Source of the DNA: Microbulbifer guangxiensis
GTDB taxonomy: Bacteria; Pseudomonadota; Gammaproteobacteria; Pseudomonadales; Cellvibrionaceae
DNA: 64,000 nucleotides
Reading direction: 5' to 3'
Assembly (NCBI RefSeq): GCF_021729075.1
Contig: NZ_JAJSAQ010000003.1
Span: forward strand, 124,001-188,000
The notes beneath the pieces were generated by a model, which saw only the letters and a list, made by a program, of their open reading frames with translations, did no database searches and was not told the DNA's origin. This document shows positions 45,044-64,000 of this stretch, piece after piece. Made by a program: the position numbers and the translations under genes. Numbering within the stretch: position 1 is the first letter of the stretch; each line of letters starts with the position of its first letter.

Positions 45044-45510
45044 GGTAATTTCCTGTATGCAAATAGAGATCAGCCTTGTTGAGGCGTGAGTAGCAAAAAA
45101 GACTGGATTTAGAAGCTACAGGACGAAGAGGGACTGGTGCGACGAAACTGAGGATTCAAACAAGAGGCTTTCTAGCTAGGTGCACTGTAGGGGGCTGCGT
45201 CAGGCAAGTCAATGTATTTCTGCGATGCCTGTATCGGGGGCCAGCCGGACAGGAACACTGGCTCTATATGGAACGCTGTATTGAGGGGTTGCGATGGCGG
45301 GGGAGGGATGGCGCTTTTAGATCAGGTTCTGTACGCGGCCCTCGGGTGTGCCATCCGAACCGTGCGCTTTATTTGTTGGGATGGCGCGATCGAAAACTCC
45401 GCTACGGCCCGTATGGCTATTAGCTCGACGCCCTTCTGGTGAAACCTGCCAATTACCCTCCTTCCAAGACGACGGAATTTGCTTGCAGTCCTGGAATGAG
45501 TCCTTCAGCT
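45044..45510. other. Spacer between the cold-shock and DUF3604 genes
   Basis: 467 bases. The right-hand part lies just beyond the DUF3604 stop and the left-hand part is upstream of the cold-shock gene, so it holds its promoter and leader. No gene or recognisable RNA was found; short open frames at 45212 and 45348 lack ribosome sites and known motifs. Confidence 0.55.
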
Positions 45511-48319: not shown

Positions 48320-49861
48320 CTAGGGCCGTGTGACCGGATGATCGATACGCTCACTCTCCAATCCATTTCGGTCCACCGCTACCACGGCAACGGTAGTAAT
48401 TTCTTCCTGCTGTTTGAACTTATGGCTGAGGACGTCCCCGGTCAAGATTTTATAGCGCCATTTCCCGTTCTCCAGATAGTGAAGCAACCATCGGGATGCA
48501 GCTTCATCACCGCTGGGCTGCCAGTGAATTGTCAGCCCGTCGACGGTTGACTGATAGCGCACACTGGGTGCCAGCGGGCGCGTACTGTCCAGCCAGGGAG
48601 ATGCAGGCACGAGTGCCTGATGGTAAAACACGGTATCTTTCAATAATTGCGCAAACTCGGGGTTTTCACTCACGGTTTTGACGTTCCAGAAAACCTGCCC
48701 GGTTTGCTCCTGTAACAGTGCACGGGTAAACAGAATCTGGTTTATGATTTCGTCGGTGCCCTGGCGCGTTGCTACCTGATTGCTGCTTAAACCTGGCCAG
48801 AGGTGACGCTGCTGGTGATTTTCACCCTGCCACCAGGCCAGCAGCATAGGAAAACTCTGTTCAATTCGGTTGATATTCCAGTAAAGCTGCGGCGTAAAGT
48901 AATCGAGCCAGCCTTCATTCAGCCAGAGCCGGGCATCGGCATAGAGCTCCTCATGCTGGTCAAACCCGGCGATCGTCTCCGGGTGTTTGGGGCGCCATAT
49001 GCCAATGGGGCTGATGCCAACCTTTACGTGGGGCTTGATCCGCTTTACTTCGCTGTAGATCTCTTTGACAAATCGGTTAACAGCCTCCCGCCGCCAGTCG
49101 GACAGGCTGAGCTGCCCCCCCTGCTGTTGATACTCCTGATAACTTCCACTGTCCGGAAAAGGTGCGCCCTGATTGTATGAGGGATAAGGATAGAAATAGT
49201 CATCATAGTGAATGCCATCGATATCGTAGCGCTGAACAATATCCGTTATTACCGCCAATGAATGGGTGATTGTGTCTTCTTGGGTTGGCTCCATCCAGTA
49301 CATGCCGTTGGCCAACTTTGCAACCAACCCCGGCTTTTTCTTGACGATGGAGTGCTTGGATACCGGGCCACCCTGAGTGTGGTGTGCGCGGTATGGATTT
49401 ACCCAGGCGTGCAGTTCCAGACCTCGCTGGTGGGCCTGCTCTATCCAGAAAGCGAGAGGGTCATAAAAGGGCTCTGGCGCCTTGCCCTGCTCGCCGGAAA
49501 GATAGTACGACCATGGCTCCAGCTCGCTTCTATACAGGGCATCTGCCTGTGGGCGGACCTGGAAAATCACCGCATTCATGTTTGCCGCCGCAACCTTATC
49601 CAGCAAGGCGATGGCCTCCTGCTGCTGTTGCTCTACGGGGAGCCCGGGCTTGCTGGGCCAGTCGATATTGGCAACCGTAGCTACCCAGGCAGCGCGGAAT
49701 TCCCTTGCCACCGTTTCCCGCTCAGCCCTTCCATAGTCTGGCAACTCCGCGTCGAACCACCTCGGATATTGCCATAGTGCCAGCGCCATTACGGCAATGG
49801 TTGCGGGGTAAATCCAGAGGAGCAGGCGCTTTACGGGTGAAGATTTGTTCGTTGTTGTCAT
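48320..49861 (-). CDS. GHL10-type glycoside-hydrolase-like membrane protein (YngK family)
   Basis: A 513-residue protein with an N-terminal membrane anchor (about 12-30) and a GHL10/DUF187 barrel. Family signatures are E-F-R-A-A-W-V-A-T-V-A-N-I-D-W-P-S near residue 52, H-A-W-V-N-P-Y-R near 150, I-D-G-I-H-Y-D-D-Y-F-Y-P near 215 and K-V-G-I-S-P-I-G-I-W-R near 275. A fibronectin-like tail (about 420-510) follows. Family members act on unidentified polysaccharides; Asp/Glu residues are in place, so hydrolysis is likely. It lies between the two copies of the repeated block, next to an amidase-like gene. Confidence 0.88.
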   Translation of the reverse strand: MTTTNKSSPVKRLLLWIYPATIAVMALALWQYPRWFDAELPDYGRAERETVAREFRAAWVATVANIDWPSKPGLPVEQQQQEAIALLDKVAAANMNAVIFQVRPQADALYRSELEPWSYYLSGEQGKAPEPFYDPLAFWIEQAHQRGLELHAWVNPYRAHHTQGGPVSKHSIVKKKPGLVAKLANGMYWMEPTQEDTITHSLAVITDIVQRYDIDGIHYDDYFYPYPSYNQGAPFPDSGSYQEYQQQGGQLSLSDWRREAVNRFVKEIYSEVKRIKPHVKVGISPIGIWRPKHPETIAGFDQHEELYADARLWLNEGWLDYFTPQLYWNINRIEQSFPMLLAWWQGENHQQRHLWPGLSSNQVATRQGTDEIINQILFTRALLQEQTGQVFWNVKTVSENPEFAQLLKDTVFYHQALVPASPWLDSTRPLAPSVRYQSTVDGLTIHWQPSGDEAASRWLLHYLENGKWRYKILTGDVLSHKFKQQEEITTVAVVAVDRNGLESERIDHPVTRP

Positions 49862-50212
49862 GATTCACTTGGTTGAGTTGTGACATGGATATTATTCAGG
49901 AATGTCTAAGCCAGGGGAATATACGTCCACACCTTTCCTTCAATGCCGCGAAGTGCTCAGGGTAGAGACGGTGAGACAAGTCTCCGACCGGGATATATAG
50001 CGAGAAAAGTTGCTGGGCTGCTTTCCCCCGGTCTGGAAAGAGGGATGCATGAGTCGATGTCTGCCGGGCCGCCATCGACCCATGCGAGGTTCAGGGCCTG
50101 GGGTAGGAGCGATACATCGGTCCGGGCGATAGAAGGTCACTATTGTTTGAATGGATATTCCGTAACTTGGTCTCTCTTTTTTATCGAAAATAGGGCTGGT
50201 GCAGGTATCACT
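49862..50212. other. Divergent spacer
   Basis: 351 bases between the leftward glycosidase and the rightward amidase-like gene. A frame is open across it from 49943, but the protein start fits best at 50213, so no gene is called. The sequence must include both promoters. Confidence 0.55.
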
Positions 50213-51040
50213 ATGCAGTTAATTGGTCTAAAGCCATCAATATTCGCAATATTGGCCCTATCGCTGCTGCAGGCCTGCACGGGCAATTCCCGGGTTGCCA
50301 CCGCTGATATTCGCCCGGTTGTGAAGTTGATGGAGCGGATCGATGTGCTATTGGTGTCTGATCACACCTTGCCGGGTCACCTCAATCTATCAACCGGCGG
50401 AGCCAATGGTGAAGAGCGCCTGTTCATTGACCCAACCCTGGACAGCCTGAATAGCAAGCTGTTGGGCCGTGGCCTCAATACGTACATCCTGAATGTCGAA
50501 GATATGATCGCGGGCAAAGACATACAGGACAAAGACACCTTTGATGCGGCCTACAAACAGTATGACCGGGTATTGGAGGCGGCAGTAAAGCATGGGGTTA
50601 CTATCGTCTCTATTCACTATGATGCGGATAAAGTGCCCGCAGGGGATAGCGGCAAAAATAAAGCCAATGCAAGTGCCGCAGAAGATGAGGAGGAGTATAG
50701 CTATGTCGGCGGCATTCAACTGATTCTGGACGAAAGGGCCACCAGTGACGCTACGCGTATCTTAGCGGACCAGATTATTCATCAAGACAAGATCTTGCAG
50801 GCCCTGAACGATGTCGGTTTTCGCATACGCCCGGGATATGCTGATAAAGTCCGCTTTCAGGACAATATGACATTGAATATCGCAGGCCACTCAGAAGGGG
50901 GTGCCTTCTTGCTGGAGATTGCGCCACAAGACCAGGCTGTTCGCCTCTATGGAAGTCCTGAGAAAATTGTCGAGGCGATAGAGACACCAATGGGATTGCT
51001 GGCGGATACGCTTTACGGGTTTCGGCAGGGCTTGCGCTAA
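50213..51040 (+). CDS. Lipoprotein related to N-acetylmuramoyl-L-alanine amidases (Amidase_3-like)
   Basis: A 275-residue protein with a lipobox L-L-Q-A-C (Cys22). The segments V-S-D-H-T-L-P-G-H, I-V-S-I-H-Y-D-A-D and L-L-E-I-A-P, in that order, correspond to the zinc His, S-I-H-A-N-A and catalytic-Glu segments of Amidase_3 enzymes, and the ending I-V-E-A-I-E-T-P-M-G-L-L-A is like their last helix. The match is remote and the acidic insert A-E-D-E-E-E is unusual. If right, it cleaves peptide stems from peptidoglycan at the outer membrane. ATG 50213 is the only start that leaves a signal peptide. Confidence 0.6.
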   Translation: MQLIGLKPSIFAILALSLLQACTGNSRVATADIRPVVKLMERIDVLLVSDHTLPGHLNLSTGGANGEERLFIDPTLDSLNSKLLGRGLNTYILNVEDMIAGKDIQDKDTFDAAYKQYDRVLEAAVKHGVTIVSIHYDADKVPAGDSGKNKANASAAEDEEEYSYVGGIQLILDERATSDATRILADQIIHQDKILQALNDVGFRIRPGYADKVRFQDNMTLNIAGHSEGGAFLLEIAPQDQAVRLYGSPEKIVEAIETPMGLLADTLYGFRQGLR

Positions 51041-51115
51041 CTCGAGATTTACTTTTGAGTCAGAAACATGAATATTGGGGTCAGAGTAAAATTTTGACGT
51101 TGGAATGGACGTTGT

Positions 51116-51291
51116 GATGGCGGGAGTGATTCGTCGTTGCGCTCCTCACCCCTTCGGGGCAGCCTGCGGCTGTCTTAGCGCGCTTTGCGCGCTGATCGAA
51201 CCCTACGCTGTTGCGTTCCCCTTCCGACAGCTTCATCAAATTAAAAAGGCCCGTTACCTTGCGGCAACGGGCCTTTTTGATTTGGTGGAGA
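51116..51291. repeat. ~175-bp block, intact copy 2 (ssrA 3' flank)
   Basis: This block repeats, with fewer changes, the one at 47753-47928. Both begin GATGGCGG(A/G)AGTGA. It contains a perfect terminator (51243-51278) and adjoins a piece of the tmRNA 3' end, so it reads as the native downstream flank of ssrA on the minus strand. Confidence 0.72.
51243..51278. terminator. Perfect bidirectional terminator
   Basis: AAAAAGGCCCGTT (51243-51255) is exactly inverted as AACGGGCCTTTTT (51266-51278). The run of five A before and T after make it effective both ways. On the minus strand it follows the tmRNA end directly, as an ssrA terminator should. Confidence 0.9.
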
Positions 51292-51303
51292 TGGCGGGAG
51301 TCG
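51283..51303 (-). other. tmRNA (ssrA) 3'-end fragment, candidate att site
   Basis: On the minus strand the 21 bases read CGACTCCCGCCATCTCCACC plus a final A: half of the T-loop, the acceptor stem and CCA of tmRNA. The rest of ssrA does not follow; from 51304 the sequence is unrelated. Integrases that use ssrA leave precisely such a 3' remnant at one end of the element. Confidence 0.8.
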
Positions 51304-51866: not shown

Positions 51867-53363
51867 CTAATTGTTGACCATTTGAACAACAAATAGTCGT
51901 CCCCCAACGTCTTTGCTACAGAGCAATTGTAAACCATCTATTAGCTCTATATGTGCGCCTGGTGGAATGGGAGTTTTGCTCTTAACGTCAGAGAGATCTG
52001 GCATGTTTTCATTAACTAGAATCCAACGCCCATGATGCTTTATGAAATAACCCACTCTTTTCCGAAACTTGTCATCGAGTCGCTCATTGGGTACTAACTG
52101 TCGATTTATGTGGAATGGAAATAGGGACTGGTCTCGGTAGACCATTAATCGATGATTGTCTGGTTTGAAGTTCGCTCCGTCACGACTTGAGTAGAGGTTA
52201 AGCACTGGCAATGCACCTTCATATTTTTGGGTGCAAAAAGGACATGAGGGACTTTTTGTATTGTCAAATATATACCATGCTTGTGTGCATGCAGAATTGA
52301 CGCATGGCTGGACCAAATCTAATGTTTTAACTAAAGCTGTTTCCCATTCATCTGCAGTGGGACGATCGTTGGGTTTGTGCAGTCCGTTGATAAATGCGCG
52401 CTCAAATAACGGACTTAAGTATGGACCAGTTATCGTGTAAGGTAGCTTATCGGTATCCTTCCACGGTAACTCGCTTTCTCGTACGTTATCTAACTTGATA
52501 CGGTTGCTCGTATCGGAAGGGTGTTCTATGAACAGCGCATTTTCACCCATAGCAAGCGTCTCATCTTCATTGGGATCCAACGCGTGTACTTTATCTCCAC
52601 GTAGAGGGTGCCGTAATAATAAGTAATGGTATATGAGTACCGACAATGCATGGCGGTCTGTATAGATGCTGGGCAGTTTCCTATTCGGGTCATGCTTATC
52701 AAGGTGGCCCGTTGCCACGCATTCAGGTGCAATGAAGTCGGGAGTACCAACAACATCAGGAGGGTATTTTCCTGGTACTACAAGCCCATCAATATCTATG
52801 ATGCAGGTCTGTGCCTTGGTCGGAGCAACCAAGACATTTTTGTAACTGAGATCCGAGTGAGCAAGCCCCGCGGCGTGCATACGTCGTACAGATCGTGCAA
52901 TCTTTAGACATATCTGTAGGTAATTAAGCCAGTTACCTTTCTCCCTTGCATCCAAAAAACGCTCTCTGTTATTCGATGATGCGAACCACTTACCTTGCTT
53001 TTCTTTTCCTTTAATACCCAGCATGTCATTATTGATACTGCCGTATTCAAAGAAAAAATGCTCAGGGTATATAGGCATAACCATGCCTAATTTCCCTTCG
53101 TGCTCGATCATATGCTCCGGCCAGCAAAACTGTTCTCGCCAATAGTTACCACCTGGGGCATCAAAAATACGATCCTTATATGCCCCCGTTATCATCTCTA
53201 GCCTATCCCGTGACGCAGCATCCTGAGGTTCTCTGTAGAAGGCGACCACTTTAGTTTTACAGGGTGTGAAATAGACATCTTTCATTGCCCCAGAGCCAAC
53301 AATTTCGTCTACAAACTCTATAGTTTTTCCATCTAAAGTTTGAACTCGAATGACGTTAGTCAT
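51867..53363 (-). CDS. TerY-P Ser/Thr-kinase-like protein with zinc ribbon
   Basis: A 498-residue protein. Residues ~15-360 are kinase-like: catalytic loop H-S-D-L-S-Y-K-N near 168-175 and D-I-D-G-L in place of D-F-G, followed by F-I-A-P-E (A-P-E). The glycine loop is V-G-S-G-A-M-K-D-V-Y; the strand after it reads V-V-A-F-Y-R, so the usual V-A-x-K lysine is not obvious. A zinc ribbon follows (C-V-N-S-A-C ... C-P-F-C). It overlaps the phosphatase gene by 8 nt and is the last gene of the TerY operon. In Ter systems this kinase, PP2C phosphatase and TerY act as a phospho-signalling triad; targets are unknown. Confidence 0.88.
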   Translation of the reverse strand: MTNVIRVQTLDGKTIEFVDEIVGSGAMKDVYFTPCKTKVVAFYREPQDAASRDRLEMITGAYKDRIFDAPGGNYWREQFCWPEHMIEHEGKLGMVMPIYPEHFFFEYGSINNDMLGIKGKEKQGKWFASSNNRERFLDAREKGNWLNYLQICLKIARSVRRMHAAGLAHSDLSYKNVLVAPTKAQTCIIDIDGLVVPGKYPPDVVGTPDFIAPECVATGHLDKHDPNRKLPSIYTDRHALSVLIYHYLLLRHPLRGDKVHALDPNEDETLAMGENALFIEHPSDTSNRIKLDNVRESELPWKDTDKLPYTITGPYLSPLFERAFINGLHKPNDRPTADEWETALVKTLDLVQPCVNSACTQAWYIFDNTKSPSCPFCTQKYEGALPVLNLYSSRDGANFKPDNHRLMVYRDQSLFPFHINRQLVPNERLDDKFRKRVGYFIKHHGRWILVNENMPDLSDVKSKTPIPPGAHIELIDGLQLLCSKDVGGRLFVVQMVNN

Positions 53364-55257
53364 TGTTAATAACTCCGGTCAGAAGCGCCACAGAGCGATC
53401 GTCGTGATTTCCAGCTATAAAAAAGTTCAGCCAATCAGTCATTTTTTCTTTGGCTTGCTCTTTAGGTCCTATTAATTGTGGAGAAATTTCTGACCATAAT
53501 GCATCCCAAGGAGCCTTTTGACTGAGCTCAGATTCGGTAGAAAATTTTGCATCTGTAATGCCGTCTGTTAGAGCCATTAAGCAAGTGAAATCTGATATTA
53601 GATCAATTTTTATTCTTTTATAAATGTCATTACTTTGAAATAGAGAAGCTTCCAGAAACCGGGTTTGCCCTGCAAACTCACCGCTATCCGGAGTGCAAAG
53701 CAATTTAACACCGTTATTAACATCGTAAGCGACAAGAGCACCATCACCGATTGAAAACCCGATGACAAGGTGCCCCCTCTCTGTCTCCTTATGGATTAAA
53801 ACCAGAAAAGTGGTTGAAAAGTCCTTCGCTGACAGTTTATGAGTTTCCGCCTCACTATCGATGGCTAACACTGCCTTCCAACCAGCCTTAATCAGTGTTT
53901 CGTGCACCGCTTGTAGCGTGGCACCATTGAAAGTGAATGCACTGGTGTAATTGTCTTGAGCCAAGCAAGCATCGACAAGAGCTGTACCTGCTTCGCCATT
54001 CAGTGCTTCACTTAGATGTTCTATAGCTATATTTAGTGCTATCTCAGATCCTCGCCGAGAGTATTGACAGCTACCGGCACCGTCTGCGACAGCTAAAATA
54101 TGCCAGCCGCTTTCTTCTAACCACTTGATTCGCGCTTCGTCGTCTCGGTGAGTGCCTTTATGTGCATGGCTGCGCCCTCTTTTTGAGGCAGTTAGAAGCC
54201 GAATGCCATCATGGTCGATACAATCGGAGCTGTCGTCAGGCTTATGGAATAGTGCAGTTGGATCAGAGGGAATATTTTGCCATAGTGTTCGAGGGTCAGG
54301 GACTACCGTGAAACGGGCGATCAAAAAAACCGTCGCTTTTGAGTTTTCCTGTTCATCATTAGTGGCTATTCCCTGGAATCGCAATTCGAATTCGCCCGCA
54401 GTAGTAGGTGTGCCAAAAACCTCGTCACCACTTTCATTGATTTTTAGCGACAAATCTTTAGGGATATGGCATTCCTGAATACTTACCCCCGGCAGAGAAA
54501 TGGAGTGTTGGTACTCACGACCAACCATCCCATTTGGTAGCTGGATTCTCTCGGTGCGCTTTTGCCTCAGGCTTGACTTTGTCTCTTTTAAATTAGTTTG
54601 TTTTGTAAATGTAACAATGTTTTGCGTTATTGATGCTGTAGGGTCAGGACGATTAATCGGATCCGTCTTTGCTACTTCTTGCCTATCTAAATCAGTTGAA
54701 TTAAACGGCTCAAAGGGTTTCAGTTCAGAATCTGGGTTATTCCCGAAACTGCCTTGACCACATTTATCATATGGTGGAAGTGAATTTTTACCACTATCGC
54801 TATCATCATTATTTTCTTCTTGAATAGCTTCATTTGTTGATTCTAGGCATTCTGACTTACTTTGGGTCCTAGCAGAAAGCTCATCATTCTCATCGACTGA
54901 ATTTATGGATTTAGTTTGAGAAATAGCTGCCGATTCAGCAGACAAAGACGAGGATCCTTCATTGACAGATGGCAGCTTGTCATTATCTTTTATAGAAGAT
55001 GTACTGAGAGCGTCATTAGTTTTTGCTGAGGTTGATTCAGCTACATGATCGGGGTTGACATTTTTCTCGCTAATATCTTCTATTTCTCTTGCATCAGCGT
55101 TCTTACAGAGCTCTCGTATGCGTTGGAGCAACATGCGATACTGTTCGCGAATTTTAGTGTCGTTCGCTATATGAGAAATTCGTGTCTTGGATATATCTAC
55201 TCCACTTATCTCAAGTAGTTGGCTCAATTCTTCTGCAGTTAAAACATTTTCAGACAT
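53356..55257 (-). CDS. PP2C-type phosphatase of the TerY-P triad
   Basis: A 633-residue protein in three parts. Residues 1-45 are helical; ~45-240 are a Ser/Asp/Glu/Asn-rich, low-complexity linker; ~250-330 form a small beta domain (G-R-E-Y-Q-H-S-I-S-L-P...G-D-E-V-F-G-T-P-T-T-A-G-E-F-E-L, an immunoglobulin-like repeat); ~355-630 is a PP2C phosphatase with metal aspartates in A-V-A-D-G-A-G, A-L-T-D-G-I-T-D and N-H-D-D-R-S. It should dephosphorylate partners of the kinase encoded next. Start overlaps the TerY stop by one base (TAATG). Confidence 0.88.
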   Translation of the reverse strand: MSENVLTAEELSQLLEISGVDISKTRISHIANDTKIREQYRMLLQRIRELCKNADAREIEDISEKNVNPDHVAESTSAKTNDALSTSSIKDNDKLPSVNEGSSSLSAESAAISQTKSINSVDENDELSARTQSKSECLESTNEAIQEENNDDSDSGKNSLPPYDKCGQGSFGNNPDSELKPFEPFNSTDLDRQEVAKTDPINRPDPTASITQNIVTFTKQTNLKETKSSLRQKRTERIQLPNGMVGREYQHSISLPGVSIQECHIPKDLSLKINESGDEVFGTPTTAGEFELRFQGIATNDEQENSKATVFLIARFTVVPDPRTLWQNIPSDPTALFHKPDDSSDCIDHDGIRLLTASKRGRSHAHKGTHRDDEARIKWLEESGWHILAVADGAGSCQYSRRGSEIALNIAIEHLSEALNGEAGTALVDACLAQDNYTSAFTFNGATLQAVHETLIKAGWKAVLAIDSEAETHKLSAKDFSTTFLVLIHKETERGHLVIGFSIGDGALVAYDVNNGVKLLCTPDSGEFAGQTRFLEASLFQSNDIYKRIKIDLISDFTCLMALTDGITDAKFSTESELSQKAPWDALWSEISPQLIGPKEQAKEKMTDWLNFFIAGNHDDRSVALLTGVINND

Positions 55258-56291
55258 TAACCTCGCCCTCGTGTCACGTCAAAGTCACTGGAGCCACCTT
55301 CAACGCTGAACTCTCCATTCTTTCTGCACCATGGGCATTGAAATAAGCCAGGTCCATTCGTGCATAGTAGCTTACCACACCCACACATCGCGAACGCTGT
55401 GTGGTTTCCACAGTGAGGACATGGAGGGAAACCTTCCAAGTTCTCTGTTCCAATTTGTTGATCGGTAGTCCCTTCCGCTGACCAAACGAAGTAATTTTCT
55501 TCTACTCCAAATGCTCCTTCCAGTTCAAACTGTCTGTTAGCGAAGTGGTTATCCTTGCTTCGGTTGTATTTTATCAAGTAGGGTCGCTCACTCTTTTGAC
55601 AGCGACCGGTTAGAACGACAACTGACTCATCGATAACACTAGAAGAGTGTTGTGGGACATTTTTCACTAGAGTTAAACCCGCCGGTTTTTTGGCTAGTGA
55701 TACGCTGCCTGTATTAGCTTCTACCGCGTGACTTGTGGCCGTGACAGAGTTGCTGACCCAATCGATAAACTCTTTGAATTGCTTGTTGTCAGAGCCATCA
55801 AACTGCAATACATGCTCGGTTAATTTTCCGAGCAATGAAGTATCAGACTGATCACCAAGTGTAATTGCTACTAACTGTGCTTTTTCAGAAAAGCTATTTT
55901 GCCAGCGAGAAATAGCTGATGCTGTGTCATCCGTCGGTTTGCCGTCTGTAAGCAGAAATACGACAGGCTTCCAGTCACCCCGTTTTTCATTGGTGGTTTT
56001 AATAACATCTCGGTCAATGCAATCCATCAAGCAATCAAGCGCGTGTCCAAGAGCCGTGCCACTGCCTAGTGGCAAGCGCGGCGGATAAAAGCTAACCACG
56101 TCTATTAACGGCGCTATAAGATCAGCCTTTCCAGCAAATGCAATAACCGATAGATAAACGGTTTCGAGAGCATGAGGATCGGTACGTAAAGAGCGAACGA
56201 TTTGTTCCATCCCGCTCTCAAGTTGGCGTAGCGGACTGCCAACCATGGATTCTGAAACGTCTAGCACAAAATAAACTGGGAGTCGGCGCAT
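55257..56291 (-). CDS. TerY-type VWA protein with C-terminal zinc ribbon
   Basis: A 344-residue protein with a von Willebrand A domain (1-190) and a TerY-C-like zinc-ribbon tail (about 290-335, C-P-H-C, C-G-C and C-P-W-C). The metal-dependent adhesion site reads D-V-S-E-S-M, with Glu where Gly is usual, followed by L-T-D-G-K-P-T-D. It is the only one of the three TerY copies with the zinc tail. It directly precedes the phosphatase gene, which agrees with the usual TerY-P order. Confidence 0.9.
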   Translation of the reverse strand: MRRLPVYFVLDVSESMVGSPLRQLESGMEQIVRSLRTDPHALETVYLSVIAFAGKADLIAPLIDVVSFYPPRLPLGSGTALGHALDCLMDCIDRDVIKTTNEKRGDWKPVVFLLTDGKPTDDTASAISRWQNSFSEKAQLVAITLGDQSDTSLLGKLTEHVLQFDGSDNKQFKEFIDWVSNSVTATSHAVEANTGSVSLAKKPAGLTLVKNVPQHSSSVIDESVVVLTGRCQKSERPYLIKYNRSKDNHFANRQFELEGAFGVEENYFVWSAEGTTDQQIGTENLEGFPPCPHCGNHTAFAMCGCGKLLCTNGPGLFQCPWCRKNGEFSVEGGSSDFDVTRGRG

Positions 56292-56303
56292 AATAACCTC
56301 GTT

Positions 56304-56951
56304 TTAAATGGCAAGCTGAATTTCTGCGGGTGGAGGCGGCAAAGTGCCGTTATCTGCACTTAATTCTACGCCTGCAGATTGGCTACCTGCAGTGATGCTA
56401 TCCGACACCCACTTAAAGAAAGCGCTAAAACCTGATGAATCCATAGTGTCTAGCGTGACAACGGTACTCGTAAGTTGGCGAAGGTACTCAGATTTTGCTT
56501 TTGGACCTGCGGCACACCCTATTATTGATGCAAAACTCATTTGCTTAACTCTTGCAGCCATTTCATCAAACAGTTGCAAATCAGACGGTTTGCCATCAGT
56601 CAAAATGAATGCCATCGGGCGGAAGTCACCTTTCGTCGTTGGAGTTGACTTCTGCACATTCTCCTCCACCTTCATGCAGAGGGTCTCTAGTGCTTCTCCG
56701 AGGTGAGTAGCCCCACTTCGTGGTAGCTCAAGTTCAGGTATTTGAACGCTCTCTAAAGGCGTCAGCGGAAACAATTCCTCGATAGTATTAGAAAATGTAA
56801 TTATCGAAATATGAACTGACTCTAGAGCGTAAGGGTCTTGCCGTAATCCAGCAACAAGAGAACTTAAGCCAACATTTACCGCGTGAATTGGCTCACCTGC
56901 CATGGAGCCACTAGAATCAATGAGTAAATAGACTGGTAAGCGTCGAGCCAT
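56304..56951 (-). CDS. terY: TerY-type VWA protein (second copy)
   Basis: A 215-residue VWA protein. The metal site is D-S-S-G-S-M near residue 12, with the later T in S-G-A-T-H-L-G and L-T-D-G-K-P-S-D; a Pro-rich tail ends it. It fits the TerY family. TerY proteins bind divalent metal and are thought to scaffold the phospho-signalling components. It is 12 nt from the next gene. Confidence 0.92.
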   Translation of the reverse strand: MARRLPVYLLIDSSGSMAGEPIHAVNVGLSSLVAGLRQDPYALESVHISIITFSNTIEELFPLTPLESVQIPELELPRSGATHLGEALETLCMKVEENVQKSTPTTKGDFRPMAFILTDGKPSDLQLFDEMAARVKQMSFASIIGCAAGPKAKSEYLRQLTSTVVTLDTMDSSGFSAFFKWVSDSITAGSQSAGVELSADNGTLPPPPAEIQLAI

Positions 56952-57007
56952 AGCGAGCTCCGTTAAAAATGATTGCAGTTATGTGTGCGGATTTTTAGAG
57001 TCAGCTA

Positions 57008-57646
57008 CTAAAAAGCAATCTGGACTTCCTCGGGAGGTGGTGGAAGCTCCCCTAGATCTGTAACGTCTTTTTTGGATAGGTCAATTTTCGCCGAGCTGGT
57101 ACTCACTGAGTCAGAGACCCACTTGAAAAATGCTGCTATCCCACTGCTATCCAGCGTGTCCAGTTGTACAACGGACTCAGTAATCTTCTTTAACTGGGTG
57201 GTATCCGCATGAGGCCCGGCAGCGCAAGCAACGAAAATCCCGAGTTTAGATTTATCGAGAGCGTTGATGCCCGCTTGCAAATCATCGGTCGGGATACCAT
57301 CCGTTAACAAGAAGACTAGTGGCCGCCAATCACCCCTTCGTTCAGGCGTTGTCTTAATAACTTCAGAATTAACACGATCATTGAGCAGAGCTAGTGCGGC
57401 ACCCATTGCGGTTGTGCCCCTCGCCTGCATTTCTGGTAATTGAAACGTGATTAGTTCAGTGAGAGGTACGCTTTGAGTTGCTTCGCTGCCGAACTCAATG
57501 ACAGAGAGTGCTGCCGTCTCGAGCGCGTGTGGGTCCTGACGTAAGCTGGAGAGTAAAGTTTGGACACCGTTAACCATTGAAGTGAGAGGCTCACCGGCCA
57601 TTGATCCGGATGTGTCCAGCAGAAGATATACAGGTAGGCGTCTCAT
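57008..57646 (-). CDS. terY: TerY-type VWA protein (first copy)
   Basis: A 212-residue VWA protein. M-R-R-L-P-V-Y-L-L-L-D-T-S-G-S-M-A-G-E-P starts it, so ATG 57646 is used; a longer frame to 57775 adds a hydrophobic, unlike stretch. The metal site has L-T-D-G-I-P-T-D. Residues and tail (P-P-P-P-E-E-V-Q-I-A-F) closely match the second copy, so the two are recent duplicates. It is the first gene of the leftward operon, 56 nt before the next. Confidence 0.92.
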   Translation of the reverse strand: MRRLPVYLLLDTSGSMAGEPLTSMVNGVQTLLSSLRQDPHALETAALSVIEFGSEATQSVPLTELITFQLPEMQARGTTAMGAALALLNDRVNSEVIKTTPERRGDWRPLVFLLTDGIPTDDLQAGINALDKSKLGIFVACAAGPHADTTQLKKITESVVQLDTLDSSGIAAFFKWVSDSVSTSSAKIDLSKKDVTDLGELPPPPEEVQIAF

Positions 57647-58167
57647 GACGTAGTCCTTGTAATTTTTATAAGTAGGATGAAATTTGATCTTGTTCGCAAA
57701 CCAATTGATAACTCGGGAGTGTAGGACGAACATCGGGACTGCACAACTACTAGAGCTAACGCACAGATAAGGCATCGGTTGTCATTTAATGACCAGGTTC
57801 GATTGGATCTGACTGTAAAGCGATCGATTTTTAAACTGGCACGTTTTTACAGGGCTATTTGTATTTGTATGTGCTGTGCCGCTGTGAGGGGTAAGCAAAA
57901 TTCTTGACTCGTGTCGCTACTAATTGTTGAATCAAGTCACTCCCGTAGTGGAGCAAGAGAAGTTATAAAGTACCAGAGAGTCGCTATTAGCAGGTTTGTC
58001 AGGTTTGTCAGCATTTGCATGCGGTCGCGCAATCTAACCTCCTACTAAATTCTGCTACTGGTGATGAGGCCAGAAATAGTTTTCTGACAATAGACCTCAA
58101 CTTTCTGAAAAAATAAAAACGAGAGAGCGCTATTTCAGGCGTTTTTGTAACTTGAGGGGTGATTTTA
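57647..58167. other. Divergent regulatory spacer of the Ter operons
   Basis: 521 bases between the two divergent Ter operons. No gene is supported. It contains a 9-bp tandem repeat, CAGGTTTGT twice at 57991-58008, and must hold both operon promoters. No regulator gene is nearby in this window. Confidence 0.6.
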
Positions 58168-59202
58168 ATGGGGTCATTTGGCTTTCCGCTTGAAACTATC
58201 GCCATACTCCTGGCGGTGGTAACTATTTCTGTAGCTCTTGACTTGTTCATGCACAGAAATAAGACCGAAGTAACCTTTGCTGATGCTGCTGGTTGGTCAG
58301 CTTTTTGGATCTTGCTTGCTGTTGGATTTTATTTCTATTTGAAAGTTAGCTTTGGTGCAGAATACGCGAGCCTTTTCCTGGCAGGTTATGCCTTGGAGAA
58401 AGCTCTCAGCATCGATAACATGATGGTGTTTGTAGCAATTTTTGCTAGTTTTGGAATTAAGGGGATCTTGCAGCACAGAATTCTTTACTACGGAATCATA
58501 GGTGCGCTTCTCTTCCGTGCAATTTTTGTTGGAGCCGGAACTTCCCTATTTGGTATAGCCCCGTGGGTTGAGCTGATTTTTGCAGTGATCGTGCTTTGGA
58601 CTGCTTATGCAATGCTCAAAGGATCAGATGATGACGACGAGCAAGAAGATTACAGTAATCACTGGAGTGTGCGTTTTACCAAAAAAATATTTCCTGTGTT
58701 GCCACGATTAAGCGGTAACAAGTTCTTTGTTAGCCATCGGGAAGTCGAGCGCCTTGCGAATGAAGATAAGTCTCTAAGCATTGCTCGTAGGGGTGCTATC
58801 TATGCCACACCTGCGTTTTTGTGTCTGATTTGTATCGAGATCAGTGACATTGTTTTCAGCTTCGATAGCGTGCCAGCTATTATCGCAGTAACTCAAGAGC
58901 CTCTTTTGGTCTACTCTGCTGTGATTTTTGCAATCCTGGGTCTTAGAAATTTGTACTTTATGCTCGCTGTCGCAGCCAAGTATCTGTGTCATCTGGAAAA
59001 AGCTGTTGCTCTAGTGTTGGTATTTATTGCAGGAAAACTTGGCGCAAGCGCAATTGAGAAGAACTTTGGAATTGAGACCTTCCACATCCATCACATGCAT
59101 AGCCTTTGGGTTGTGCTGGGGCTTATTTTTGCTGGTGTGATTGCGTCGATCATATGGCCTGAAAAGAGCAAAGATAGCGTTGAGGCTGAAGGGGCTGCAT
59201 GA
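58168..59202 (+). CDS. terC: TerC-family integral membrane protein
   Basis: A 344-residue protein with about nine helices. The TerC signatures are A-L-S-I-D-N-M-M-V-F-V-A-I-F near residue 80 and E-I-S-D-I-V-F-S-F-D-S-V-P-A-I near 230, both with acidic residues inside the membrane as in other metal-transport relatives. A charged cytoplasmic loop (D-D-D-D-E-Q-E-D) lies in the middle. Tellurite resistance proteins of this family form a membrane hub for TerD-type Ca2+ proteins; manganese export is a known role in relatives. ATG 58168 is eight nt from GAGGGG; GTG 58159 is the alternative. Confidence 0.93.
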   Translation: MGSFGFPLETIAILLAVVTISVALDLFMHRNKTEVTFADAAGWSAFWILLAVGFYFYLKVSFGAEYASLFLAGYALEKALSIDNMMVFVAIFASFGIKGILQHRILYYGIIGALLFRAIFVGAGTSLFGIAPWVELIFAVIVLWTAYAMLKGSDDDDEQEDYSNHWSVRFTKKIFPVLPRLSGNKFFVSHREVERLANEDKSLSIARRGAIYATPAFLCLICIEISDIVFSFDSVPAIIAVTQEPLLVYSAVIFAILGLRNLYFMLAVAAKYLCHLEKAVALVLVFIAGKLGASAIEKNFGIETFHIHHMHSLWVVLGLIFAGVIASIIWPEKSKDSVEAEGAA

Positions 59203-59843
59203 CTGTGAGAGTGGCATTGTTTGATTTTGATCAAACTCTGATCCGGGAAAACTCTCTTGGCTCTTTGTTTAAGTCTGTATCAGGGCATCGTCTCATATGG
59301 CCACACGCGGTCCCAGCATTTTTTACTAAGAAATGCTGGAGCGCTGGTGTGAGACAGGCGATCAAAGAGCATCTTTACAAGCGGTATCTCATAGGGATTA
59401 GTGAGTGTCAATTGTATGAGCTTGGTCAGAAGCAGGCTCACAGTTACACACCAATTTCGGAAGTCGTGGACGCATTGCAAAAGCATGCTGCTGGAAATGG
59501 TGAAGTATGGATTGTCACTGCATCACCAGCCCCGTTTGTACGAGGTATCATTGATAGTTTGGGTTGGCCATATCACTGTCTGATCGGGACGAATTTACCA
59601 GAAGTGGATGGGCTGTATAACGGCGACTTAGGCTTAGAGTGCTCCCATGAGGAGAAAGTCATTAATATTAATAAAGCTGTTCGCAAGCAGAATGGTTTAG
59701 TCGACCTTGAGCTTGCATACGGAAATTTGCCACCAGATCTTCCGATGTTACTAATGGCAGAAAAGGCATTTATTGTCACTGAAGGTAAAGTACGTAAGCT
59801 GAGAAAATGTCATACTTTATCAGTAGATAATGTATTAACTTAA
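59199..59843 (+). CDS. HAD-superfamily phosphatase (phosphoserine-phosphatase-like)
   Basis: A 214-residue HAD hydrolase. Motif I is D9-F-D11-Q-T, motif II the Ser/Thr in V-T-A-S-P-A, and the Lys-containing motif III E-E-K-V. Motif IV is unusual: Y-G-N-L-P-P-D-L-P-M instead of the usual G-D-S-x-x-D. It overlaps terC by four bases (ATGA), so the two are co-translated. Likely substrate is a phosphorylated intermediate of the Ter pathway. Confidence 0.87.
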   Translation: MTVRVALFDFDQTLIRENSLGSLFKSVSGHRLIWPHAVPAFFTKKCWSAGVRQAIKEHLYKRYLIGISECQLYELGQKQAHSYTPISEVVDALQKHAAGNGEVWIVTASPAPFVRGIIDSLGWPYHCLIGTNLPEVDGLYNGDLGLECSHEEKVININKAVRKQNGLVDLELAYGNLPPDLPMLLMAEKAFIVTEGKVRKLRKCHTLSVDNVLT

Positions 59844-59903
59844 TTGCCTGTGCAATTTTGGCGAATTGTTTCGCTTATTGATGAGAAAAATGGAGAAAAT
59901 GTT

Positions 59904-60482
59904 ATGGCCGTTTCTTTGTCAAAAGGTGGGAATGTTAGTCTGGAAAAGACTAATCCTGGAATCAAAAAAATTCTTGTTGGTTTGGGCTGGGATGAGCGTG
60001 TAACAGACGGTACGGATTTTGACCTTGACGCCTCTGTTTTTCTGCTAGCTGATAACGGTAAGGTTCGCGGTGACCATGATTTCATTTTCTATAACCAGCT
60101 AACATCGCAATGCGGTTCAGTTGTTCACCAGGGTGATAACAGAACCGGGGATGGAGATGGTGATGATGAAGCAATCAAGATTGACCTGTCTGCCGTGCCT
60201 GCTGCTATTCAGAAAATTGCCGTCACTGTTACAATTCATAACGCGGAGGCAAATCGTCAAAATTTTGGACAGGTTGCAAACGCATTCATTCGCATTGTCA
60301 ACGATGAAACAAATGTAGAGGTTGCCCGCTACGATTTGACCGAAGACTATAGTATTGAGACGGCGATGATTTTTGGTGAACTCTATCGCCATAGTGGAGA
60401 GTGGAAGTTTAAGGCGGTTGGCCAGGGGTTTGCTGGAGGTTTGGCTCCGATGGCCCAGGAGTATGGCGTCAACATAGGCTAA
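59904..60482 (+). CDS. terD: TerD-family Ca2+-binding protein
   Basis: A 192-residue protein of the TerD family. The two acidic calcium-binding segments D-F-D-L-D-A-S (38-44) and [13 protein letters not shown] (77-89) are intact, as are N-x-G-W-D and the final beta-sandwich. TerD proteins bind Ca2+ tightly and associate with membrane TerC. ATG 59904 is behind GGAGA; the 60 nt after the HAD gene leave room for its own site. Confidence 0.96.
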
Positions 60483-60493
60483 AGCTTACAGCC

Positions 60494-60527
60494 AAAGAGC
60501 TTGCAGGTGGATCTTGCGAGCTCTTTT
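60494..60527 (+). terminator. Possible terminator after terD
   Basis: AAAGAGCT (60494-60501) is inverted as AGCTCTTT (60519-60526), with a further T and then AAA. With only four T residues the stop may be partial, allowing some read-through into the biosynthetic genes. Confidence 0.55.
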
Positions 60528-60577
60528 AAAAAATTAGTTTTTCACTTATACACTAGATAATCTAGAAAAATAAAAAT

Positions 60578-61663
60578 ATGCATTCAGAGTGTATCAGTAT
60601 TGATGCTGGACAGTTGATTTTAAACGTGCGCAGAGCCAAGCATCCAATATCAGAAATACTTGATTTTGCTTGCCGAGAAAACCCTAAGCGTGGGTTTCTT
60701 TTTGTTTCGAAAATACTTGGTAAGCATATTCCCGTCAGACCCAGCAAGATGAGAGCTATATATGACGAGTTCGCTGAGTATATAGAGCCTGGAGACGATA
60801 CATATGTAGTCGGGATGGCTGAGACTGCTACAGGGTTAGGTGCGGGAATTGCAGATAGCCTAAGTAGGCGGCAGAAGCCACCTGTTTATTATCAGCATAC
60901 TACCCGCAATAAGCTGAATAAGCCACTCTGGTTGGAGTTAGATGAGATTCATAGCCATGCTGTGGATCAACTGTTATATGAGCCGTCACCTGAGCATTTA
61001 GAGGGTATAAGGCAAGCTAAAAGGCTGATACTTGTAGATGATGAGATATCTACAGGGCGAACAATTAAGCAGCTCGCAAAGAAATTGCTATCCAATCTGC
61101 CGTATGTTAGAGAGATCGTTATTGTATCTCTAGTTAGCTGGCTATCCGAAGATGCTACTAGGGTTTTAAAAAATTTTCCTGTTTCGACTAGGTTCATATC
61201 ATTGGTTGAAGGGGATTTTTCATTTATACCGAATCCAGAGTTTTCGGCGGAGCTACCTCCGATCGTTGATCGTGCTCTTGCCGAAACTCAAGCTCTGACC
61301 AACGTTGGTCGCTTTGGGCTTCTAATGCCATACCAAGGATCTGTGCCAGACCTAAATGTACGAAATTCACTTACTGTGGTCGGAGATGGAGAGCACCTTT
61401 ATTTGCCGTTTCTTGCAGCAGAGCGTGCAGAGGCCAAAGGTTTGGATGTTCTTTTCCAATCGACCACACGATCACCCATTCGTGAAGGTCAGGCGATTAA
61501 GTCTAAATTAAGCTTTTCGATTGATGAGCGGCCGGTAAAACATTTCATATACAATTTAGCCGATGATCCCGCAAGGGAGGTTGTCGTTTTGCTAGAGGAT
61601 GAGCGAATGCGACCTATGCATCAGTTGGCTAGGCAATATCCAGCGTCATTGAGAGTTGTTTGA
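60578..61663 (+). CDS. PRTase-TRSP fusion of the Ter biosynthetic cluster
   Basis: A 361-residue protein. Its first 230 residues are an orotate-PRTase-like phosphoribosyltransferase with the PRPP loop I-L-V-D-D-E-I-S-T-G-R-T (151-162); the C-terminal 125 residues are the TRSP domain (G-R-F-G-L-L ... G-D-G-E-H-L-Y-L-P-F). These fused domains are typical of Ter systems, where they are predicted to attach a base-like group to phosphoribose. It directly abuts the next gene (stop then ATG). Confidence 0.88.
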   Translation: MHSECISIDAGQLILNVRRAKHPISEILDFACRENPKRGFLFVSKILGKHIPVRPSKMRAIYDEFAEYIEPGDDTYVVGMAETATGLGAGIADSLSRRQKPPVYYQHTTRNKLNKPLWLELDEIHSHAVDQLLYEPSPEHLEGIRQAKRLILVDDEISTGRTIKQLAKKLLSNLPYVREIVIVSLVSWLSEDATRVLKNFPVSTRFISLVEGDFSFIPNPEFSAELPPIVDRALAETQALTNVGRFGLLMPYQGSVPDLNVRNSLTVVGDGEHLYLPFLAAERAEAKGLDVLFQSTTRSPIREGQAIKSKLSFSIDERPVKHFIYNLADDPAREVVVLLEDERMRPMHQLARQYPASLRVV

Positions 61664-62428
61664 ATGGTAGGCACAAGCAAAATTTACGTGTTTACTGATC
61701 TTGACGATACGCTGTTCCAAACACAAAAAAAACTACCCCCTGGACTTCGCACGGCACCGGCTGCGCTAGACAAGAAAGGGGTTCCCCAATCATTTTTAAC
61801 ATCACAACAATCAGCTCTAATAAGTTTGTTTTCTAGTCAAGGGGCTTCGATAATTCCAGTAACAGGAAGAAATCAGGCTGCATTTGATCGCCATGTCCTG
61901 AATCCGGATTTGTTTTCAGGGTTGCGTATTTTATCTCATGGAGCGATCGTCTCTGATTGTGGTGGTCGGCTTTATGAACCTTGGCGTGATTATCTCCTTG
62001 ATAACTACGATTTGGAGGATTGGGGTCGAAAATTAAAAAGCGCACTTACTAAAGTTCAATCACTCATTACAAGTTTATCGTTGCGTTTGCGTTCTCGCGT
62101 GATCTCTGAGCATGGAATTGTCGCATACGTAAGCATCAAAGCTGACAATTATGACCATGCTGAAAGTTTGCTGATGATTTTAAAAAATGAAATAGCAACG
62201 GCTTTACCAAGTGGATTTCGGGTGCATTCTAATGGCAACAATTTAGCATTGTTAGCTCCTTATGCATCTAAAGAGTGTGCAGTACGATTTGTAATTAATG
62301 AATTGAAGCTTAGTGCTAATGATCTCGTTATTGGATTGGGTGATAGCATTACTGATTTCCCTTTTTTACGAGAAACTCATTTCGGAATGTTCCCAATCGG
62401 AAGCCAAATTGATAGGGGATTCCTTTGA
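61664..62428 (+). CDS. HAD-family phosphatase (Cof-like)
   Basis: A 254-residue HAD hydrolase with D-L-D-D-T (12-16), V-T-G-R-N (66-70), and L-G-D-S-I-T-D-F near 225. It has the type-IIB cap of sugar-phosphate phosphatases, lacking the first HAD's odd motif IV. In Ter clusters such a phosphatase is predicted to remove a phosphate from the nucleotide-like product. Its stop overlaps the next start (TTGA). Confidence 0.88.
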   Translation: MVGTSKIYVFTDLDDTLFQTQKKLPPGLRTAPAALDKKGVPQSFLTSQQSALISLFSSQGASIIPVTGRNQAAFDRHVLNPDLFSGLRILSHGAIVSDCGGRLYEPWRDYLLDNYDLEDWGRKLKSALTKVQSLITSLSLRLRSRVISEHGIVAYVSIKADNYDHAESLLMILKNEIATALPSGFRVHSNGNNLALLAPYASKECAVRFVINELKLSANDLVIGLGDSITDFPFLRETHFGMFPIGSQIDRGFL

Positions 62429-63531
62429 GTACGTCAAATAAGAAACCTATTCTCGGTAGCTACCCCGCGGAAGACTGCCTTTTCTTACTGAAGCCTATAA
62501 AAACAGAATATCATACTGTAGAAGATAAAGAGACTTTGATTCAACGCGGAAAATTACATTATTCAGAGATAATACATAAGGAAAATATACCTAGCTCAGA
62601 ATATACCAGTCTATTTTTTGAGTTGACTCAACAGTATAAGCAGCGGCTTGCAGATGAGGTTACACTACTTGCCTCAATCATAGATCAACGTGTCAGTGAT
62701 GCCGTCTGCTTAGTTTCACTTGCTCGAGCAGGCACTCCCATTGGAGTGTTGTTAAAAAGAGCATTAATGCATCATTATAAAAAGAAAAGCACGCATTACA
62801 GTATTAGTATTGTGCGCGATCGTGGCATTGATGAAAATGCTTTAGATTTCATACTGAAACAGGGACATAAAACTAATTCTATCGTATTCATTGATGGGTG
62901 GACGGCAAAAGGTGTTATCGCATCGGAGTTGCGTAAGAGCATAAAAAACTACAATGAAAGTCGCGGCACCTGTGTGCCAAGTGAGCTTTTTGTAATATCT
63001 GATATCGGAGGCTGTGCTGATTTTTCTGCAGGCAGTACTGATTACACGATACCTAGTGCGTTGATGAACTCAACCATTTCGGGATTGGTGTCAAGATCAA
63101 TTTTAAATGAGCAAATAAGAGATGATGACTTTCATGGTTGTGTAAGGTATGACCACCTCAGGAAGGCGGATCTATCGCTTTGGTTTGTTGATGAGATCAG
63201 CGATTGCTTTAGACCTATCAAATATAATGCTCAATCTTTTGTTTCAAACAGAGAGCGCCGGAGGATGACACAGTCATTTCTCAATGCTCTCAAATCACGC
63301 TATCAAGTTTCCGATGAAAATCGGATAAAGCCAGGTATCGCAGAAGCGACACGTGTATTACTTCGTCGTATACCTGATCTGTTGCTTGTAAAAAATAGGC
63401 TTTCCGGAGATATAAAGCATCTCATACGACTGTGTGATGAAAAGAAAATACCTTACCTTGAGATGCCTGAGATGCCTTTTGGAGCCTGTGCACTCATCAA
63501 AGATGTTGTGGTGGAGGCGGCTGGAAAATGA
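62425..63531 (+). CDS. StiP-like PRTase-related protein
   Basis: A 368-residue protein of the StiP/PRTase_1 family of Ter clusters. S-L-A-R-A-G-T-P-I-G (98-107) and F-I-D-G-W-T-A-K-G-V (155-164) take the place of the PRTase loop, with W and no Asp-Asp, so PRPP use is uncertain. TTG 62425 starts it behind AGGGGATT. It was once called a cysteine protease, an assignment I would not repeat. It overlaps the next gene (ATGA). Confidence 0.85.
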   Translation: MSTSNKKPILGSYPAEDCLFLLKPIKTEYHTVEDKETLIQRGKLHYSEIIHKENIPSSEYTSLFFELTQQYKQRLADEVTLLASIIDQRVSDAVCLVSLARAGTPIGVLLKRALMHHYKKKSTHYSISIVRDRGIDENALDFILKQGHKTNSIVFIDGWTAKGVIASELRKSIKNYNESRGTCVPSELFVISDIGGCADFSAGSTDYTIPSALMNSTISGLVSRSILNEQIRDDDFHGCVRYDHLRKADLSLWFVDEISDCFRPIKYNAQSFVSNRERRRMTQSFLNALKSRYQVSDENRIKPGIAEATRVLLRRIPDLLLVKNRLSGDIKHLIRLCDEKKIPYLEMPEMPFGACALIKDVVVEAAGK

Positions 63532-64000
63532 CGGCTGATTATTTTTCATTGGGGGCGACTTTATATACACCATGCACACACCCAAACCTTGAGCGTATTT
63601 TCCAGCGTGGGTTGGGAGCGCGTAGCATGGTGTACTGCACCGAAGACTCTGTAAATCCGCAAGAGTTGGGTATAGCTCTTGAGAATCTTGCCAATGCCTT
63701 GTATTTATTTAAACCAAATAAAGAATTCCTTCGTTTTATCAGGCCAAGAAATTCCGTAGTTCTGGAAAAAATTCTGTTAATGCCCGGGATAGAAAAGGTT
63801 AACGGTTTTGTTCTTCCCAAGTGTGACCTACACTCGTTACCAAATTATTTGAGTGTTTTGCACAAGGCCAAAAAGCGATTTTCACTAATGCCCACTCTTG
63901 AAACAGAGCAGATTCTTGATCCTCTCGTTTTACCTAAAATTCGTGACATTTTAAATCAAATTAAATCTAGGATAATTTGTTTACGAATTGGTGGGAATGA
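63528..64000 (+). CDS. C-C bond lyase of the Ter cluster, N-terminal part
   Basis: The first 157 residues of a gene that continues past the window. G-A-T-L-Y-T-P-C-T-H-P-N-L near residue 9 and R-S-M-V-Y-C-T-E-D-S-V near 32 match the HpcH/citrate-lyase-like TIM-barrel C-C bond lyases found in Ter operons. Its catalytic residues lie mostly downstream. It probably supplies or cleaves a carbon skeleton for the Ter metabolite. ATGA overlap with the preceding stop. Confidence 0.85.
   Translation, partial: MTADYFSLGATLYTPCTHPNLERIFQRGLGARSMVYCTEDSVNPQELGIALENLANALYLFKPNKEFLRFIRPRNSVVLEKILLMPGIEKVNGFVLPKCDLHSLPNYLSVLHKAKKRFSLMPTLETEQILDPLVLPKIRDILNQIKSRIICLRIGGN

Follow-up and report, generated by a model that had tools for sequence, protein, structure and literature searches.

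A mobile island at ssrA in Microbulbifer guangxiensis carries a two-part Ter system of the predicted nucleoside-like type

The 64,000-nucleotide stretch of Microbulbifer guangxiensis contig NZ_JAJSAQ010000003.1 considered here (positions 124,001 to 188,000; hereafter the window) runs at its right end into a 26-kb genomic island that is integrated at ssrA, the transfer-messenger RNA (tmRNA) gene, and that carries a two-part Ter system. One part is a leftward signalling operon of the TerY-P type, and the other is a rightward operon predicted to produce a nucleoside-like metabolite. The locus is a new mobile member of a known, poorly understood two-part Ter system, and its most interesting side is an operon lineage free of the ATP-grasp ligase. 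The preferred explanation, to which we give even chances, is that the Ter genes are cargo of this horizontally acquired, integrase-borne island and form a compact Ter system that protects most likely against phage and perhaps against chemical stress. Features beyond the window are given in window-equivalent positions.

The ssrA island and its integration site

The left edge of the island is a 22-bp direct repeat (attL, 51282-51303), found by script as an exact repeat, and its partner (attR, window-equivalent 77460-77481) coincides over 21 of its 22 bases with the 3' end of the predicted ssrA gene (window-equivalent 77461-77848, minus strand), which forms the right edge about 13.5 kb beyond the window. 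The two att copies are perfect and lie 26,178 bp apart, and a tyrosine-recombinase (integrase) gene adjoins ssrA (window-equivalent 75803-77359; Phage_integrase 2.5e-10; PHROG integrase 1.3e-33). The G+C content is 45.4% in the island versus 59.8% to its left (window 1-51281) and 61.0% to its right (6.5 kb read). A query made of ssrA and its neighbours matched all 48 same-genus genomes, own included. Amongst the 29 congener loci returned, 17 contain the att sequence plus about 0.9-1.5 kb beyond, and in six of these (G035, G030, G023, G013, G034 and G027) the site is uninterrupted, with ssrA joined directly to sequence 75-90% identical to the left flank of the island. The integrase, the att repeats and the empty site in relatives identify this foreign DNA as an integrative genomic island. 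Rfam gave nothing in the window. The mobile island, its edges and the second terD gene that closes the operon were all absent from an earlier reading made by a model from the letters of the window (the sequence-only reading).

The island is small and self-contained, and within the genus it was found in one species only, as the Ter domains StiP and TerY_C exceeded their cut-offs in none of the 36 other same-genus genomes. Together with the clean empty counterpart sites, this makes comparisons between island-plus and island-minus strains direct.

Eight congeners were read 6-16 kb past ssrA. The site is empty in G013, G023 and G030, while G019 and G011 hold differing inserts of about 7 kb (L134 130-7100; L135 170-7318) that begin with an integrase gene and end with a second copy of the left flank. 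The G019 insert encodes a GmrSD_N protein that is NsnA-like (PADLOC 2.7e-29), and the G011 insert encodes an AbiJ_NTD4 protein (Pfam 9.7e-22) and a TIR-effector-like protein (PADLOC 8.4e-14). Since both inserts combine an integrase with defence-type genes, the ssrA site looks like a hotspot for defence cargo; with two inserts typed, this reading is suggestive. In P. aeruginosa, ssrA flanks core defence hotspot 2 (cDHS2; PMC10250203; this and the other articles cited by PMC number are quoted from excerpts).

Other features of the island and its surroundings were also noted. A 206-residue island protein (L004 6223-6843, window-equivalent 70223-70843) corresponds to the CARF half of an RtcR-like sigma-54 activator (PADLOC 1.2e-41); it ends before the AAA+ part, and no other piece was found nearby. 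CARF regulators of the RtcR type are also found with some CoCoNuT systems, in which TerY-P is frequent (PMC11090510). Amongst the island open reading frames (ORFs) and family matches, no CoCoNuT partner (McrBC-type GTPase or helicase-HEPN protein) was noticed, no specific search having been made. A replication-initiator-like REP_ORF2-G2P protein (L004 4662-5228; Pfam 2.3e-8) hints at replicative mobility of the island. To the left of the island, a second variable stretch of about 5.9 kb (window 45190-51115) is absent from G013, G023 and G030, and is bordered on its far side from the island by a gene that we take to be RNase R. An element of about 190 bp that ends in the att site (window 51115-51303) seems dispersed: one copy in G019 has a further match at window 47753-47935, and in G013 and G023 copies are located beyond the RNase R-like gene.

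The signalling and biosynthetic operons

The signalling operon lies on the minus strand and begins with two TerY vWA proteins (57008-57646, PF00092 1e-13; 56304-56951, PF00092 8.8e-13), followed by a third that carries the metal-binding (zinc) TerY_C domain (55257-56291; PF15616 5.8e-44; PF00092 5.1e-9), in which the DxSxS...T...D pattern of a metal-ion-dependent adhesion site was recognised by eye. The next gene overlaps it by 1 bp and encodes a PP2C phosphatase (53356-55257; PF13672 3.3e-37 over residues 360-611) with a long N-terminal extension, residues 1-359, that has no Pfam match up to E 5. The last encodes a Ser/Thr-type kinase (51867-53363; Pfam Pkinase 5.8e-8, over its cut-off, as is the Kdo kinase family) with a conserved C-terminal part of about 110 residues; behind the kinase domain, Pfam gives nothing up to E 5 except a weak RING-like match. 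HSDLSYKN, DxDG and the zinc-ribbon-type cysteines C354, C359, C374 and C377 are invariant in the six aligned kinase sequences, own included. The operon thus contains the components of a TerY-P triad: vWA proteins, here three with one carrying TerY_C, a PP2C phosphatase encoded with them, and a protein that reads as a Ser/Thr kinase with a C-terminal zinc ribbon, whose metal binding by the cysteines is putative.

The rightward operon, on the plus strand, opens with a TerC/Alx-family membrane protein (58168-59202; PF03741 1.1e-40; TIGR03718 6.9e-97, over its cut-off) and a HAD-IB phosphatase (59199-59843; PF12710 1.6e-19; TIGR01488 over its cut-off). These are followed by a first TerD (59904-60482; PF02342 9.3e-88), a PRTase_2 plus TRSP phosphoribosyltransferase (PRTase; 60578-61663; PF15609 1.1e-58 and PF12500 2.7e-15, over cut-offs), a HAD-IIB/Cof-like phosphatase (61664-62428; PF08282 2.6e-6; TIGR01484 9.9e-9, below its cut-off) and a StiP plus PELOTA protein (62425-63531; PF11202 3e-96 and PF15608 7.3e-27, over cut-offs). 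A CitE-like C-C bond lyase (63528 to window-equivalent 64397, 397 bases past the window; PF15617 9.2e-73) and a second TerD outside the window (window-equivalent 64502-65110; PF02342 2.3e-37) close the operon. Both TerD proteins are putative Ca2+ binders. The structure model of the PRTase_2/TRSP protein resembles adenine PRTases (best Foldseek E 6.4e-6), and a 13-sequence profile of the lyase matches a solved citrate lyase relative, 3qll, at 2.3e-14. The PRTase_2 and TRSP, StiP and PELOTA, C-C bond lyase and HAD phosphatase families are those of the Ter nucleoside-like type as judged from sequence. The first HAD protein matches the HAD-IB proteins of the Moritella and G726 Ter loci at 38%, and HAD-IB phosphatases occupy shifting positions in other Ter loci (L031 11127-11732; L118 7992; L131 9997-10752, the last assigned by eye).

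Gene spacings of -8 to +104 bp on both sides are operon-like, and the 13 Ter genes are intact, tightly spaced open frames. Three starts were picked among in-frame candidates by ribosome-binding-type sequence and homology: 57646 for the first terY (ATG behind AAGGA; 57775 in the ORF list), 58168 for terC (GAGGGG before the ATG; 58159 in the list) and 59904 for the first terD (59844 in the list). The genes, their order and the 521-bp gap between the operons, as described in the sequence-only reading, were confirmed by the ORFs and Pfam matches, and its proposal of a TerY-P signalling module joined to a predicted nucleoside-like biosynthetic operon is supported by the families found.

StiP is publicly named a cysteine protease. 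Judging from structural and sequence comparisons, its core is probably a PRTase fold joined to an L7Ae-like RNA-binding domain. In the VIA list for StiP, titles naming PRTase or PyrR make up 43 of 50 rows; a capsule synthase stands in row 5, row 17 gives no function, and rows 10, 15, 22, 23 and 26, with incomplete titles, are presumably HGPRT inhibitor entries. No Foldseek row for StiP reaches E 0.001, and the top three are SIS-type regulators or isomerases with a root-mean-square deviation of about 17. A profile comparison of StiP with PRTase_2 was not used as proof, as it gave E 0.005 but a probability of 6.8%. In 14 of 14 sequences, a loop like that which binds phosphoribosyl pyrophosphate (PRPP) has a single acid, D157, then G or A, and then invariant W159, K162 and G163; because two acids are usual, StiP catalysis is uncertain. 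Single-acid PRPP loops exist in uracil PRTases. C239 is the only cysteine invariant in the 14 sequences, and this invariance is lost on inclusion of the distant homologue L132. For StiP, phosphoribosyltransferase activity is a better hypothesis to test than proteolysis.

The intergenic region between the two operons (57647-58167) is exactly 521 bp long given the starts 57646 and 58168, and no promoter, operator or conserved stretch was recognised in it. Consensus scans, which leave a promoter possible, found no sigma-70-like site (mean 1.3 in shuffles) and, allowing up to 2 mismatches, no sigma-54-like site. Inverted repeats of 12 or more are lacking; an imperfect pair of 18-nt direct repeats and two terminator-like plus-strand matches, one of them inside terC, were judged to be at chance level. 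Comparison with the upstream regions of G726, G249 and Halomonas gave no similarity beyond matches at E 7.2. Amongst the six examined loci with both modules, these are divergent only here, codirectional in G726, G044, Azospirillum and pNDM-CIT, and convergent in Polaromonas. Divergence in one of six loci and a gap free of recognised signals leave unsupported the claim that signalling and synthesis are jointly controlled from one region, and a shared divergent promoter was rejected as lacking support. A functional partnership of the two operons is probable all the same, with a common promoter unsupported.

Surveys that each counted the own genome detected the TerY_C domain in 2 of 58 relatives, 2 of 369 members of the class and 3 of 390 members of the order; these are four distinct genomes (own, G044, G251 and G726). 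StiP is present in all four, on the same contig in three and on short separate contigs in G251, and the link between the two module families asserted by the earlier reading is thereby upheld. The StiP and TerY_C surveys were taken as the same genome draws, judged from the listed handles. Three separate plasmid searches, not intersected per record, matched the TerY_C protein in 2,328 records (other vWA proteins included), the PP2C protein in 2,217 (every match covering less than 80% of it) and StiP relatives in 2,568 of 72,556. In viral contigs, no relative of the TerY-P kinase was confirmed.

These distributions bear on whether two independent cassettes share the island by chance, with TerY-P as a stand-alone defence and the biosynthetic operon working alone, an explanation that we hold to be somewhat improbable. 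It would account for the operon occurring without TerY-P in most loci read (Moritella, the Halomonas plasmid, G249, G113 and others), for TerY-P occurring without the operon in 30 kb read of a Caballeronia plasmid, and for the varying orientation and spacing of the modules. It fits poorly with TerY_C never appearing without StiP in the surveys, despite the rarity of StiP itself (9 of 369 class members, 21 of 390 order members), and with the closeness of both halves of the own and G726 systems in the trees described below.

Three side observations concern the spread of these genes. A DUF4236 protein, which may belong to the system, is encoded at every examined two-module locus except Polaromonas, five of six in all (own, G726, G044, Azospirillum and pNDM-CIT; L004 1301-1633; L118 16225; L033 1317; L054 16298; L055 11658). 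A viral contig (L131 3792-15325) and Acinetobacter phage ME3 (KU935715.1) carry Ter biosynthetic genes. Vibrio megaplasmids of about 0.9 Mb (L056, L130) have just a HAD-StiP pair in 31 kb read, which is perhaps a minimal version of the operon.

An ATP-grasp-free lineage and the proposed function

Extension to the right had been suggested as a way to find an ATP-grasp ligase, TerB and TerA, and none of these was found in the island. ATPgrasp_Ter was sought there by tblastn and by profile; in the whole own genome no PF15632 match exceeds the cut-off, the best score, in a 1,080-residue frame, being 26.1 bits where 29.1 are required. A single TerB query found nothing in the island. The genome has only two TerD-domain places, both of about 210 residues, and thus no TerA-sized protein.

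An unrooted tree of PRTase_2, HAD, StiP and lyase (25 loci, 1,205 columns) splits with support 100 into 12 loci (own, G249, G113, Moritella, G726, the Halomonas plasmid, G528, G482, G538, G510, G447 and G125) and 13 others. The own operon is nearest to G249 and G113 (support 92) and groups with these, G726 and Moritella with support 100. A Ter ATP-grasp profile at E 10 matched none of the 12 loci of the own clade and 10 of the 13 others (the exceptions being G605, G361 and G070, a short contig; the Azospirillum match is in two pieces). The stretches behind these counts span 4 to 34 kb, and contig ends truncate several of them (G070 10.3 kb, G523 4.3 kb, G482 15.7 kb, Moritella 15.4 kb); the profile was itself built from 7 of the 10 positives. 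Absence from the stretches read in all 12 loci of the clade suggests that the loss or lack of ATP-grasp is probably old and not recent decay; since it was not found in the 11 other clade loci either, the ligase is not defining for the clade. ATP-grasp looks dispensable in one whole lineage, which narrows Ter chemistry. No published account of this lineage or of the StiP fold was found; the founding Ter analysis, reportedly that of Anantharaman et al. 2012 and the source of the published Ter scheme, could contain them.

TerY-P accompanies two of the 12 loci (own and G726) and four of the 13; the eight other survey genomes of the own clade have no TerY_C match in the class and order tallies, which appear to cover them. 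In a seven-taxon TerY-P tree, which alone included Caballeronia, own and G726 are sisters with support 100. The trees do not include G174, G251, the loci of the Vibrio megaplasmids, those of phage and viral origin, or eight StiP-positive genomes retrieved as small loci (G583, G623, G642, G681, G716, G750, G766 and G782). A 14-locus tree had made the own locus appear as the sole mosaic of an ATP-grasp-free operon with TerY-P; this was dropped, as G726 shares the pairing.

Under the preferred explanation of a compact protective system, the PRTase_2/TRSP protein and, if active, StiP-PELOTA would attach ribose-phosphate to base-like substrates, the two HAD phosphatases would remove phosphate, and the CitE-like lyase would make or break a C-C bond. 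The product would be a small nucleoside-like signal, made without the ATP-grasp step of the sister lineage, and the PELOTA domain might tie the pathway to an RNA. The TerD proteins and membrane TerC would respond to the signal or to metal, while the three TerY vWA proteins may serve as metal-dependent adaptors for the kinase/PP2C pair, which would set the phospho-state of its targets. This outline is modelled on the published Ter scheme. Phage defence is favoured because of the insertion site and the TerY-P triads already tested: TerY-P protects P. aeruginosa PAO1 against phage (PMC10889362) and was reported active against T7-like phages (PMC7699616).

Several observations weigh against this explanation. 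No PADLOC model gave a TerY-P match at the locus, the presence of TerY-P models in PADLOC being unverified, and its only matches there were weak ones to kinase and PRTase (best 1.1e-5 and 4.7e-5). Most StiP genomes or loci have no TerY_C or TerY-P. Antiphage activity of TerY-P modules on their own has been shown for those whose kinase is fused to an OB-fold (PMC11090510), whereas the kinase here bears zinc-ribbon-type cysteines. Three of the eight ssrA sites read (G012, G017 and G435) were not classifiable. The StiP model is of middling quality (mean predicted local distance difference test score, pLDDT, 63.5), and a PRPP loop with two acids was found in none of the 14 StiP sequences. The lack of ATP-grasp, TerA and TerB might reflect a loss of function, and together with the RtcR-like regulator, whose CARF part stands without an AAA+ part, it might mark a dying system. 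We consider such decaying cargo very unlikely, given the 13 intact, tightly spaced Ter genes and the lack of ATP-grasp in the stretches read of all 12 clade loci.

Phenotypes involving tellurite, zinc, oxidative stress and colicins have also been associated with Ter operons (PMC12054061), which leads to the main rival of phage defence. Here the island would be mainly a metal(loid) or oxidative stress cassette: metal export or handling would fall to TerC and Ca2+ buffering or sensing to TerD, with the response tuned by the metabolite and the phospho-switch, and phage effects would be secondary. The TerC/Alx-family match over the NCBIfam cut-off, the contribution of Klebsiella terC to tellurite and zinc resistance (PMC12054061) and the same gene set beside terZ, terB, terC and terD in pNDM-CIT speak for it. 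Against it stand the failure to find the classical tellurite operon's TerA and TerB in the island and the defence-type cargo of both other bounded inserts at the site; we regard this alternative as rather unlikely.

A bolder extension of the protective reading, which we consider doubtful, is that there are two old Ter operon lineages with different products, one of which (12 loci, the own island included) never uses ATP-grasp. In the own island and G726 it would have been wired to a three-TerY kinase/phosphatase switch, in the own case via an ssrA defence hotspot. The antiphage messenger would then be an unligated nucleoside-like molecule from two phosphoribosyltransferases, one of them, mislabelled a protease, reading RNA through PELOTA.

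Comparison with known systems

The Ter scheme of nucleoside-like synthesis coupled to signalling is summarised in PMC7824862 and PMC11090510. The classical tellurite operon terZABCDEF has TerA and TerB beside TerC and TerD, whereas searches of the island yielded neither. The antiphage TerY-P triad (Gao et al. 2020, via PMC11090510 and PMC7699616) shares the combination of vWA protein, PP2C phosphatase and Ser/Thr kinase; it is described with a single vWA protein and an OB-fold kinase, whereas the island encodes three vWA proteins, TerY_C being present in one of them, and its kinase has zinc-ribbon-type cysteines. The already described Ter system of Acinetobacter jumbo phage vB_AbaM_ME3 (PMC7824862) likewise places a PRTase/HAD Ter set and a StiP relative on a mobile genome; it is phage-borne, its StiP is 35% identical to that of the island, and the excerpts make no mention of TerY-P for it.

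The Ter region of the IncHI1-type plasmid pNDM-CIT (NC_019360.1) reads ATP-grasp, PRTase, HAD, StiP, lyase, terW, TerY, TerD, TerY, TerY_C, PP2C and kinase, with the terZ/terB/terC/terD genes divergent from that set. The PRTase_2, HAD, StiP, lyase, TerY, TerY_C, PP2C and kinase genes are shared with the island, at identities of 60% for the kinase, 50% for the TerY_C protein, 48% for TerC, 39% for StiP and 35% for PP2C. Unlike the island, pNDM-CIT has ATP-grasp, TerB, terW and more TerD-family genes, its biosynthetic and TerY-P genes lie on one strand, it is a plasmid and not an ssrA island, and its operon falls on the other side of the support-100 split.

The closest relative found with both modules is G726, of the same order. 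Its modules differ from those of the island in lying on one strand about 8 kb apart, with TerB and a longer DUF4236 protein between them, and no tRNA or tmRNA gene was found in the 34 kb read. Its operon belongs to the same clade, its TerY-P proteins are 54-83% identical to those of the island, and it shares the HAD-IB phosphatase and the closing TerD.

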